Source of the DNA: Candidatus Iainarchaeum sp.
Lineage (GTDB): Archaea > Micrarchaeota > Micrarchaeia > Anstonellales > Bilamarchaeaceae
Reading direction: 5' to 3'
Assembly (NCBI GenBank): GCA_028714535.1
Contig: JAQTME010000012.1
Span: 1 to 32,341, forward strand
Length of the DNA: 32,341 bases
A model generated the notes under the pieces. It was not told the DNA's origin. It saw only the letters and a program-made list of their open reading frames with translations, and ran no database searches. Positions 5,746 through 16,901 of this stretch are shown piece by piece. Numbering within the stretch: position 1 is the first letter of the stretch; every line of letters starts with the position of its first letter. A program made the position numbers and the translations under genes.

Positions 5746-5844
5746 CGGGCCCGAAGGGATTTGAACCCTCATCTCAAGGTCACTCCTGCAATCAGGAGAG
5801 CGCATCCGAAGCCTTGCCGGTTATCCAGGTTACCGCACGGGCCC
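5746..5844 (-). tRNA. tRNA-Arg(UCG) with a 25-nt intron
   Basis: The minus-strand transcript folds as a complete tRNA. The acceptor stem is GGGCCCG/CGGGCCC with G73 and no encoded CCA. The D arm is CGGU/ACCG with A20 in the loop (an arginine identity base). The anticodon stem is CAAGG/CCUUG with loop CUUCGGA, and the T arm is GAGGG-UUCAAAU-CCCUU. The anticodon stem only closes if 25 nt (5781-5805) are removed at the canonical 37/38 position. The precursor shows a textbook bulge-helix-bulge: outer CAAGG/CCUUG, central CUUC/GGAG, inner UGCG/UGCA, and 3-nt bulges GGA and UGA. The gene starts 7 nt after the methionine aminopeptidase stop codon on the same strand, so it is probably co-transcribed with it. 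Confidence 0.95.
5781..5805 (-). other. tRNA-Arg intron (canonical 37/38)
   Basis: This 25-nt intron is predicted to be cut as GG^A at its 5' end and UG^A at its 3' end, between the second and third bases of the two 3-nt bulges as expected for the archaeal splicing endonuclease. Inside it CUCCUG and CAGGAG could also form an alternative hairpin. Confidence 0.9.
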
Positions 5845-11446: not shown

Positions 11447-11475
11447 GCCGCAGTAGCTCAGTGGGAGAGCACACC

Positions 11476-11515
11476 TGGGCCTTCTGGAAGTTATTTGACC
11501 AGCGGGCTCTGTGAA
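11476..11515 (+). other. Non-canonical tRNA-Phe intron (30/31), 40 nt
   Basis: A full bulge-helix-bulge is visible: outer AG/CU, central CACA/UGUG, inner GGGC/GCUC (one G-U), and 3-nt bulges CCU and AAG cut as CC^U and AA^G. These cuts give exactly the junction that completes the anticodon stem. Confidence 0.88.
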
Positions 11516-11522
11516 GCTGAAG

Positions 11523-11573
11523 ACTCTCAATGGGCATGAAGCCCGTTTGAGGCGCCGATACAAAGGCGCAGAA
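11523..11573 (+). other. Canonical tRNA-Phe intron (37/38), 51 nt
   Basis: The intron contains two hairpins, CUCAA+GGGC with GCCC+UUGAG (11526-11551) and GCGCC with GGCGC (11552-11569). The central helix of the splice motif is imperfect (three pairs and an A-G mismatch), so it is a relaxed motif that may need prior or assisted folding. Confidence 0.83.
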
Positions 11574-11636
11574 ACGGTGGGGTCGCTTGTTCAAATCAGG
11601 CCTGCGGCATTTATACTTTCTTTAAGGAGGCATCCT

Positions 11637-11870
11637 ATGGCATCCCTATTTTCCGATATCAAGGCGGTCGTCTTCAGGGCACAGTTCATCGCGACGCTCG
11701 CGATGTTCCTGTCCATAACGCTCATGGTGATCCAGGGCGACATGACAATCCGCGCCTTCCTGCTCCTCCCGGCCATCCTGTTCTACTACCTCTCCAAGAT
11801 CCTTTTCGCCAAGGAACTGCAGGACAAGGCGGACAAAACCATCGAGAAAATCAAGGCAAGGCAGGAATAA
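11637..11870 (+). CDS. Small two-helix membrane protein, 77 aa
   Basis: I do not recognise the family. Residues about 17-34 (FIATLAMFLSITLMVIQG) and 39-60 form two transmembrane helices, followed by a charged tail (LQDKADKTIEKIKARQE), presumably cytoplasmic. The ATG is well supported by AAGGAGG 6 nt upstream, the strongest Shine-Dalgarno in the area. It lies 27 bp downstream of the tRNA-Phe 3' end; TTTATAC at 11610-11616 could be its own TATA box but would give a transcript lacking the Shine-Dalgarno, so read-through from the tRNA promoter is the alternative. Function is unknown. Confidence 0.8.
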   Translation: MASLFSDIKAVVFRAQFIATLAMFLSITLMVIQGDMTIRAFLLLPAILFYYLSKILFAKELQDKADKTIEKIKARQE

Positions 11871-14508: not shown

Positions 14509-15416
14509 TGGGGATGCATGTCGAGGACATAGGCGTGGATGCCATTGCGGCCATGGACGCCGAGCGTGCGTTCTCAAACTGCGGCTTCCAGGCGACCAAC
14601 ATCGCGCGCGGCATCGCCATAATCCGCGAGATGAAGATGAAAAAGGCGACTGTTTTCCTGACGTTCACATCCAACCTGGTCGCATCAGGCCTCCGCGGGC
14701 TCATCAAGGAGATGTGCAGGCGGAAATTCGTAGATGCGATAATCACTGCAGGCGGCAGCCTGGACCACGACCTCATAAAGTCGGCGAAGAAATACGAGCT
14801 CGGCTCCTTCATGCTGGATGACGCCGAGCTCCACAAGAAGGGCATCAACCGCCTCGGCAACATACTGGTGCCGAACGAGTGCTACGAATACCTGGAAACG
14901 TTCATGCAAGGGATATACGAGGAGCTCTACCAGCAGGGCAAGACAGTTTCGCCGTCGCAGATCGCGGCCAGGATAGGCGAGAAGACCGGCGAGGATTCGT
15001 TCCTCCACTGGTGCACGAAGAACAGGATACCTGTCTTCTGCCCGGGCATAACCGACTCTGCCATCGGGCTGCAGGCATATTTCTTCAAGCAGAAGCGCAA
15101 GGATTTCTGCATAGACGTCACGAAGGACATGAGCGAGCTGGCGCAATTGGCTCTCAACGCGGAAAAGACGGGCGGCATAGTGCTTGGCGGCGGAATATCC
15201 AAGCACCACGCCATGGGCGTGAACCTCCTGCGCGGCGGCTTCGACTACGCCGTATACGTGACCACGTCTTCGCCATGGGACGGCTCGCTCAGCGGCGCGC
15301 GCACCAACGAGGGCATATCCTGGGGCAAGATAAATGAGAAGGCCAACCACGTGACCATAGACGCTGACGCCACAATCGCCTTCCCGCTCATCATGGCGTC
15401 TTTCCTGAAACGGTGA
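14508..15416 (+). CDS. dys: Deoxyhypusine synthase
   Basis: The enzyme transfers the aminobutyl group of spermidine (or an archaeal substitute) to a lysine of aIF5A, the first step of hypusine formation. The 302-residue protein has the canonical NAD-site IITAGGSLDHDLIK near residue 81, GINRLGNILVPN near 110, PVFCPGITDSAIG, and DGSLSGARTNEGISWGKI near 268, including the active Lys. The ATG overlaps the stop of the upstream DHS-like gene (TGATG). A GTG at 14505 and an ATG at 14514 are alternative starts. The tandem with a DHS-like paralogue is notable and may divide protein and small-amine substrates. Confidence 0.93.
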   Translation: MGMHVEDIGVDAIAAMDAERAFSNCGFQATNIARGIAIIREMKMKKATVFLTFTSNLVASGLRGLIKEMCRRKFVDAIITAGGSLDHDLIKSAKKYELGSFMLDDAELHKKGINRLGNILVPNECYEYLETFMQGIYEELYQQGKTVSPSQIAARIGEKTGEDSFLHWCTKNRIPVFCPGITDSAIGLQAYFFKQKRKDFCIDVTKDMSELAQLALNAEKTGGIVLGGGISKHHAMGVNLLRGGFDYAVYVTTSSPWDGSLSGARTNEGISWGKINEKANHVTIDADATIAFPLIMASFLKR

Positions 15417-15420
15417 TGCG

Positions 15421-15921
15421 ATGGACATGACCCTGCTGCCGTTCATCCTCGCGTTCGTCGCAGGCTTCATCGTCAAATGCGTGGACTGGCTGGACGACGA
15501 CCGGAAAAGCAGGCACCCCGCCAAATACGCCCTCGCGGTAATCTACGGCATCCTGATAGGCTATGTCATCGGCGCGTCCACGTTCTCGGTCCTCTTCGTC
15601 GCAGCGCTCGTGGCCCAGGTCTTCGCCAAGAAGGTGGACACGATTGCGCACCGCCTCGGCTTCATAGCCACCGCCATCGCCATGCTTGCATTCGGCTTCC
15701 CGTTCATGGACGCTGTGCAGTTCGGCTTCTTCCTGCTGCTCGCGTTCCTCGACGAGGCCGATTACATCGGCCGGCTCAGGCCGCTGGCAGAATACAGGCC
15801 GTTCCTTCCGGCAGGCGCGCTGTGCATGCTGGCTTTCGGGCGCTGGGACTATTTCGCCGGCATAGCGCTTTTTGACATCGGCTACAGGCTTTTCCCCGCC
15901 CTCCAAAAACATATAAAATAA
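15421..15921 (+). CDS. Multi-pass membrane protein, unknown, 166 aa
   Basis: The protein has about five hydrophobic segments (about 4-20, 37-58, 60-70, 80-97 and 100-112, and again near 130-150) separated by charged turns such as DWLDDDRKSRHPAK. The acidic loop and later FLDEADYIGRLR recall Asp-rich loops of membrane prenyltransferases, but no full motif is present, so no function is assigned. It begins 4 nt after the deoxyhypusine synthase stop and ends 17 nt before primase, so it belongs to the same transcription unit. Confidence 0.8.
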   Translation: MDMTLLPFILAFVAGFIVKCVDWLDDDRKSRHPAKYALAVIYGILIGYVIGASTFSVLFVAALVAQVFAKKVDTIAHRLGFIATAIAMLAFGFPFMDAVQFGFFLLLAFLDEADYIGRLRPLAEYRPFLPAGALCMLAFGRWDYFAGIALFDIGYRLFPALQKHIK

Positions 15922-15938
15922 GGGAGAGAATAACCATT

Positions 15939-16901
15939 ATGGATGAGGGGCTGGATTTCGCTGTCAAATACCCGTTCAGCGACAGCGCCAGGAAAAGCCT
16001 GGGCGACATCCAGCTCACGGAGCGCATAGTCGAGCTCGCAGTGGAGCGCATAAGGAAGGCCGTCAGGGGCGACGACAGCGCTAGGGTCGTCTTCCACGAA
16101 TCCGACAAGAGGGAGGAGATAGCGTCGTTCGCAGCGGCACGCATGATACTCGGCCACCTGCGCAACTCCTACCTCACCAACCGCTTCGCCATCAACGAGT
16201 CCAAAATCGTCCGCGGCCGCATAAACAAGGAGGACGAGCGGACCGTGGACGCGGTCGCTGCCCAGTTCGGCATAGCCAGCGCAGTGGAAAACGGCATGAT
16301 GCTCCTGGATTTGCCGACCTACCTCAGGTACAGCGTGCGCGACCCGCACTACAAACTCATCAACAGGAAGCTGTTCAGCGGCAGGGTCGAGATAAACGCG
16401 GAAGAGAAGAAGAGGCTGGTGGAAGAGGCGGTCAAGAAGCACATAGAGCGCATCCCGACCGTCAAGGACCCGCCGGACATAATCAAGAACGCGGGCAAGC
16501 AGCTTGTGGCAGAGATACCCAAGACCGAGGTGAGGATGACCGTCAAGGCGGGCGACCACCCCCCCTGCGTGATGAGGCTGCTTGAGAGCCTGAAAAACCA
16601 CGAGAACCTGCCGCACCACGCCAGGTGGTTCCTTGCGGCGTATACGCTCGCCATAGGCATGGGCGAGGACGACATAGTGAAGCTGTTCGCAGGCGCGCCT
16701 GACTTCAGCGAGAAGATAACCAGGTACCAGGTGAGCCACATAAAGAAGAAGGGATACAGCGTGCCGTCCTGCGCGACCGTGATGAGCTACGGGCTGTGCT
16801 GCGCGGTTTGTAGGATAGGCAGCCCGATAAACTGGCACACCCTCGAGAAGGGAAGGAAGGACGCGATAAACGCGGAGGCAGACAATGCAGCCAAGGGATA
16901 G
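15939..16901 (+). CDS. priL: DNA primase large subunit
   Basis: This is the regulatory subunit of the archaeal/eukaryotic-type primase, partner of the adjacent PriS. The 320-residue protein has an N-terminal helical domain and a C-terminal iron-sulfur domain. The cluster ligands are visible as HPPCVM near residue 210 and PSCATVMSYGLCCAVC near 277-291, giving the required four Cys with one to spare. The short length fits small archaeal versions. GGGAGAG lies upstream of the ATG. The 3' end overlaps the PriS gene by 17 bp, which supports coupled production of the heterodimer. Confidence 0.94.
   Translation: MDEGLDFAVKYPFSDSARKSLGDIQLTERIVELAVERIRKAVRGDDSARVVFHESDKREEIASFAAARMILGHLRNSYLTNRFAINESKIVRGRINKEDERTVDAVAAQFGIASAVENGMMLLDLPTYLRYSVRDPHYKLINRKLFSGRVEINAEEKKRLVEEAVKKHIERIPTVKDPPDIIKNAGKQLVAEIPKTEVRMTVKAGDHPPCVMRLLESLKNHENLPHHARWFLAAYTLAIGMGEDDIVKLFAGAPDFSEKITRYQVSHIKKKGYSVPSCATVMSYGLCCAVCRIGSPINWHTLEKGRKDAINAEADNAAKG

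Follow-up and report, generated by a model that had tools for sequence, protein, structure and literature searches.

The locus

The window, that is, the whole stretch of 32,341 nucleotides analysed here, makes up contig 12 of an assembly, 1.14 Mb in size and 91% complete, of a small and uncultured archaeon of the Ca. Micrarchaeota (genome G000 below). A tRNA-Phe gene lies on its plus strand at positions 11447-11609, and its sequence and coordinates as first annotated proved exact to the single base. The gene is made of three exons separated by two introns:

11447..11475, plus strand: exon 1, acceptor 5' strand, D-arm and positions 26-30 (sequence; spliced product called tRNA-Phe(gaa))
11476..11515, plus strand: intron 1, 40 nt, position 30/31 (junction contiguous in relatives; covariation of the bulge-helix-bulge, BHB)
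11516..11522, plus strand: exon 2, GCTGAAG, 7 nt, positions 31-37 with the anticodon GAA (same letters in the relatives examined)
11523..11573, plus strand: intron 2, 51 nt, canonical 37/38 site, with hairpins at 11526-11551 and 11552-11569 (junction contiguous in G014 and genus g2)
11574..11609, plus strand: exon 3, position 38, anticodon stem 3' strand, variable loop, T-arm, acceptor 3' strand and discriminator A (sequence; ARAGORN call)

As the initial annotation had proposed, excising 11476-11515 and 11523-11573 yields a 72-nt tRNA with anticodon GAA and all four stems paired (GCCGCAGTAGCTCAGTGGGAGAGCACACC-GCTGAAG-ACGGTGGGGTCGCTTGTTCAAATCAGGCCTGCGGCA), and ARAGORN calls this product tRNA-Phe(gaa); when only one of the two introns is excised, the program makes no call. 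The locus is thus a multiple-intron archaeal tRNA gene, with two introns and a canonical tRNA after their removal. Unspliced, it is missed by ARAGORN and, in a covariance-model check, by Rfam RF00005 at the gathering threshold; at E up to 10, RF00005 detects only its 3' part. Downstream, a small membrane-like protein is encoded at 11637-11870 (plus strand). The list of open reading frames places its start at 11511, inside the tRNA, and the ATG at 11637, behind AAGGAGG, is a likelier start.

No second tRNA-Phe was found in the 91%-complete assembly, whether by DNA search, by RF00005 at E up to 10 or with a pattern for an uninterrupted tRNA-Phe, so that the second intact gene envisaged by the initial annotation as a refutation did not appear. 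The case for a single copy is strong but not final, because the assembly is incomplete and another tRNA-Phe could be unassembled.

Reading the stretches around tRNA matches in the same genome revealed introns also in the Asp, Thr(CGT), Gly(TCC), Tyr, Arg, Leu(CAA) and Glu(TTC) tRNAs. At least the Lys(CTT) and Trp tRNAs have two introns each, and Arg(TCT), Ile, initiator Met and Gln(CTG) appear by eye to be multiply interrupted. The tRNA-Phe gene is therefore not exceptional within its own genome, where multi-intron tRNAs are common. The window itself holds a further tRNA on the minus strand (5746-5844), apparently Arg with anticodon TCG and one intron, which RF00005 finds and ARAGORN misses.

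Two introns with different motifs

The motif of intron 1 (BHB1) is built as follows, with arrows marking predicted cuts:

11470..11473, plus strand: central helix 5' strand CACA (positions 25-28), pairing with 11510-11513 (pairing, covariation)
11474..11476, plus strand: 5' bulge CC↓U, predicted cut 11475/11476 (sequence; junction confirmed by intron-less relatives)
11477..11509, plus strand: inner helix h' and loop, GGGCCU 11477-11482 with GGGCUC 11504-11509 (folding, covariation)
11510..11513, plus strand: central helix 3' strand UGUG, within intron 1 (pairing, covariation)
11514..11516, plus strand: 3' bulge AA↓G, predicted cut 11515/11516 (sequence; intron-less relatives)

The position at 30/31 and the two 3-nt bulges, each cut between its second and third base, stand as first described, and the junction cannot slide because the flanking bases differ. 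The central helix CACA/UGUG, both bulges and the inner helix GGGCCU/GGGCUC are all perfect, and the short central helix with two 3-nt bulges identifies an archaeal BHB tRNA intron. The word "complete", which had been applied to this motif, holds for these elements but overstates the whole: the exon-side outer helix is missing, since C25 (position 25) is part of the D-stem. Where a strict hBHBh' motif would have a helix, no more than weak outer pairing is possible, and the type is the relaxed HBh'.

Intron 2 is of a looser kind. Its motif comprises three pairs, CUG/CAG, followed by an A.G mismatch, a 3' bulge AA↓A and, on the 5' side, an open loop with two hairpins:

11569..11571, plus strand: CAG, 3' strand of the 3-bp central helix of motif 2, pairing with CUG of exon 2 at 11517-11519 (folding)

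It falls short of a strict BHB with a 4-bp helix and two 3-nt bulges, and belongs to the relaxed bulge-helix-loop type. Forcing it in folding costs about 2 kcal/mol; motif 2 is weak, with 3 bp plus A.G and lacking a strict 5' bulge. A one-base slide (A/A) of the junction is possible and leaves the mature tRNA unchanged. The initial annotation had rightly recognised an imperfect second motif that uses bases next to the first junction: the two motifs do share nucleotides, and the CUG of the 7-nt exon lies in helix 2. It had also spoken of multiple non-canonical introns, which cannot be retained: intron 1 alone is non-canonical, intron 2 sitting at the classical 37/38 site with nothing but its motif relaxed.

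Might these interruptions be self-splicing or mobile introns of group I or II instead of BHB introns? Archaeal group I introns are reported in a paper that treats Micrarchaeota as well (PMC6125680). Here, however, the introns measure just 40 and 51 nt, the cuts lie in 3-nt bulges or their relaxed form, and no Rfam group I or II match, hence no ribozyme core, was found in the window. We give this explanation practically no credence.

Introns of tRNA-Phe among Micrarchaeota

The precursor was compared by blastn with 43 genomes of the family, and patterns and a mature-tRNA query were then run over the order and the phylum. Among about 300 Micrarchaeota genomes searched, 21 carry the 30/31 intron (20 found by pattern, plus G030): 19 are in the window's family and two other families have one each. 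When 84,980 named species genomes were scanned with an exact pattern for this form of tRNA-Phe, CC being required at 29-30, 12 records matched, all of them Ca. Micrarchaeota MAGs; the window's own record may be outside that collection. The states of the gene are:

No intron: G014, G031, genus g2
37/38 only: G001, G005, G010, G011, G015, G040, G042, genus g9 (G035 read through, other g9 members taken as alike)
30/31 and 37/38: G000, G003, G004, G006, G007, G008, G012, G013, G016, G039, genus g4
Three introns, with one in the T-loop near 59/60 added: G002 (L015), G023 (L029), G112/AUK049 (L072), G030 (L194)
30/31 and T-loop, without 37/38: G032, G033
D-loop and 37/38, without 30/31: G009 (L027)

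Relatives that lack one or both introns have uninterrupted junctions and unchanged exon letters. Junction 1 is contiguous as CACACC↓GCTGAAG in G011, G015, G010 and G005, which fixes the first splice site independently of any model, and junction 2 as GCTGAAG↓ACCGAG in G014 and genus g2. By eye, the T-loop intron of AUK049 shows a perfect BHB (UUCA/UGAA, AA↓A, AA↓U). Continuous 5' halves of tRNA-Phe at first seemed to be lacking in family f5, and a hidden 30/31 intron was considered there; reading the genes led us to reject it, the halves having been missed because the D-arm reads GCTCAACC, a form that the search pattern excluded. The f5 genes either lack introns or carry one at 37/38 or in the T-loop.

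The sequence of intron 1, similar between G000 and genus g4, otherwise varies in ways that preserve its folding. At position 28, the pair of the central helix (H) is A-U in 8 of the 21 copies, U.G in 12 and U-A in one, the intron partner tracking the base change that the exon requires in the anticodon stem; the inner helix likewise varies with compensating changes across genomes. Since the exon strand of this helix also belongs to the mature tRNA, it is the intron end that followed the tRNA, and we regard the exchange of A-U for U-A as direct evidence of constraint on BHB1. In 20 distinct sequences of the intron, H and h' are paired in 183 of their 200 cells. When the 3' strands were re-dealt among genomes 5000 times, a control in which relatedness remains, 150.3 cells were paired (sd 4.1, max 165) and none of the 5000 re-dealings reached 183. 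Recurrence in 21 genomes with pairing above this control is not chance. Judged from comparative data, the two-intron arrangement is real and selection keeps it in related species.

These data also bear on whether the locus is a decaying pseudogene, silent, with the working tRNA-Phe elsewhere and unassembled. That standard tRNA finders miss the gene, that the assembly is a draft and that the second motif is weak would all suit such a fate. A decaying gene would hardly, however, keep a mature tRNA perfect in every stem, BHB pairs that covary between species and an architecture maintained in many genomes, and the alternative gene was not found in the assembly. We consider decay very improbable, and expression of the locus presumable.

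On the endonuclease tree the state of the 30/31 intron changes at least 9 times (9 steps with an absent root, 10 with a present one), and that of the 37/38 intron 3 times; sister species differ in intron state (G015 versus G002, G011 versus G012). The idea that a 30/31 intron always comes with a 37/38 one, losses passing through splicing intermediates, fits the genus and was refuted by G032 and G033.

The splicing enzymes

A 403-aa protein encoded on contig C4 of G000 is homologous, through its residues 16-403, to the three-unit epsilon2 splicing endonuclease of ARMAN-2 (4fz2, E=3.9e-127). It has the features of this class, namely a single chain of ~390 aa, alphaN-alpha-betaC units and the key residues: those aligned to Y236, H251 and K282, whose roles as catalytic triad come from PMC6379350, and to Y160/K161 of the ARMAN-specific loop (ASL), whose roles come from PMC12397907, are all present, and the alignment shows the motifs GTYK, FRIY, WMHS and VKK. 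Of 196 Micrarchaeota genomes sampled, 191 have proteins above the PF01974 cut-off. The ARMAN-2 enzyme cleaves both BHB- and bulge-helix-loop (BHL)-type pre-tRNA introns (PMC12397907), so by analogy such an enzyme would suit both motifs of the tRNA-Phe. We thus regard the 403-aa protein as a putative epsilon2 endonuclease, homodimer formation and cleavage being known for the ARMAN-2 enzyme only (PMC12397907).

Compared with the ARMAN-2 entry (Ca. Micrarchaeum acidiphilum, PDB 4FZ2, 9W2K), the homologue is full-length and alike in triad and ARMAN loop, but almost every genome of the window's family adds a separate EndA-like protein of ~165 aa. This PF01974 paralogue (L010:1456-1953, G000:C8:10170-10412; orthologues L124-L143) is present in nearly all 43 family genomes and was not found in G014 and G042. 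It has a conserved RKGxRPGED motif without the catalytic His, is sometimes encoded 1-3 kb from the epsilon gene, and is possibly an accessory subunit.

The gene for the RtcB ligase is also present in the genome, with an unexpected insertion:

14754-16100 of the record (G000:C2, L276), minus strand: rtcB, HMM match; insertion locus at about 2805-2740

Between MPDGH and SGYGFPIGGVAA, 33 nt with in-frame TGA and TAA interrupt the frame, and their exact removal restores MPDGH[E/S]GYGF, which is uninterrupted in relatives. The RNA of the insertion folds at -24.6 kcal/mol (z -4.8) into a relaxed BHB with central helix GCC/GGC plus G.A and bulges AC↓A and AA↓U. Because the frame is interrupted, ligase activity would require this putative splice, unless the gene is damaged. 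In a raw listing, rtcB falls into at least 2 HMM pieces in about 49 of 269 genomes of the phylum, and some of these cases will be paralogues or contig ends.

Order of splicing

Helix H1 of BHB1 and the anticodon stem compete for positions 27-28 and are mutually exclusive. Folded under constraint (at 37 C, protein and modification left out), each of the 13 precursors is more stable as the H1 conformer than as the anticodon-stem conformer, the gap being 2.6-8.6 kcal/mol. Once intron 1 is removed, no more than about 4 kcal/mol, and usually no more than 1-2, separates the anticodon-stem conformer from the unconstrained cloverleaf. Because the helices exclude each other and folding favours BHB1, it is likely, though not proven, that intron 1 leaves first.

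We propose that, as the precursor first folds, CACA at positions 25-28 would pair with UGUG at the end of intron 1. The cuts at CC↓U and AA↓G would be made by the epsilon-type endonuclease, after which RtcB would join position 30 to 31. Only then would the anticodon stem (27-31 with 39-43) be complete and provide the outer helix of the second, relaxed bulge-helix-loop motif, so that the same endonuclease would excise intron 2 at 37/38. Cleavage by this enzyme and its order we infer.

The order could instead be free or reversed, with intron 2 excised from a conformer that loops out intron 1 and so closes the anticodon stem. Intron 1 does form a stable hairpin of its own, a three-way-junction conformer is possible (-62.3 kcal/mol), and genomes with the 37/38 intron alone (G015, G011) or without it (G032, G033) indicate that each motif can be spliced alone. 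Such a conformer is nevertheless less stable than the BHB1 conformer in all 13 precursors, and positions 27-28 are common to H1 and to the anticodon stem that motif 2 needs as its outer helix. We think a free or reversed order unlikely. The same genomes qualify the initial claim that a 7-nt exon implies ordered splicing: helix competition and folding favour intron 1 leaving first, but dependence is not strict, since relatives carry either intron alone. As a whole, we hold with high confidence that this is a working, single tRNA-Phe(GAA) gene, from which the epsilon endonuclease would remove intron 1 and then intron 2, with RtcB as the ligase.

A hairpin element dispersed in tRNA introns

A hairpin element of about CAAACTTTTTAGGAAAAAGTTTGATCAAAAACTGG recurs within introns of many tRNAs, at 37/38, in the D-loop and in the T-loop (L231-L275, 17 genus genomes; in G000 at C23:4905-4967, C5:59305-59337, C8:17413-17446 and C19:2169-2197). 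A perfect T-arm lies within 130 bp of 14 of 24 copies, compared with 2% of random positions. Its orientation relative to the tRNA is mostly one and the same; it is reversed in the tRNA-Phe 37/38 introns of G001, G004, G009 and G015, which points to spread at the DNA level. The 113-nt 37/38 intron of G004 (L022) has about 50 nt apparently inserted in the hairpin loop of the element, and intron 2 of the window is laid out in a similar way as two hairpins, though their arms differ. Similar introns across tRNAs and positions are also known from tRNA intron transposition in Thermoproteales (PMC4033280, PMC4090602), but the element shared here also occurs reversed, for example in the tRNA-Phe 37/38 introns of relatives.

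Discussion

Several BHB introns per tRNA, an epsilon2 endonuclease and their occurrence in Micrarchaeota form an already known class, and the present locus is a new member. The initial annotation had named Thermoproteales and a few other lineages; the class is known from them, but the list omitted the organism's own phylum, for multiple-intron tRNAs are tabulated for ARMAN-1 and -2 (PMC4033280 Table 1), and the Lys(CTT) and Trp tRNAs here have two introns as well. Like the present gene, tRNAs of Thermoproteales and other archaea including ARMAN-1 and -2 (PMC4033280; tRNAscan-SE 2.0, PMC8450103) contain 2-3 BHB introns at canonical and non-canonical sites, some so close that one must leave before the motif of the other forms (PMC8450103). 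What distinguishes the present case is the combination of 30/31 and 37/38 in tRNA-Phe, within one Micrarchaeota family, and a series from 0 to 3 introns. No such series among relatives was met in the literature searched, whose reach excluded some key papers.

The insertion in rtcB is the strongest side finding and, with the hairpin element, may outweigh the main locus in worth. For archaeal pre-mRNA BHB introns, cbf5 is the only gene that a 2020 paper names (PMC7714728; see also PMC2738675); if spliced, the rtcB insertion would add a second gene beside cbf5 (PMC7714728). It is tempting to join a tRNA-Phe supply that depends on two overlapping introns leaving in order, the seeding of tRNA introns by a hairpin element that spreads as DNA in both orientations, and a 33-nt BHB-like intron in the rtcB pre-mRNA, which the very machinery containing this ligase would have to remove, into a self-dependent splicing circuit; this idea is possible, though on balance doubtful.

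For the analysis of such genomes, the locus is a warning: tRNA searches in bacterial or generic mode overlook essential tRNAs. For the biology of the family, dense multi-intron tRNA splicing, on record in Micrarchaeota for two ARMAN genomes, now reaches across a whole family, and the graded series of 0, 1, 2 or 3 introns in the same gene of close relatives opens tests of intron gain and loss, and of whether competing RNA helices set the order of splicing.
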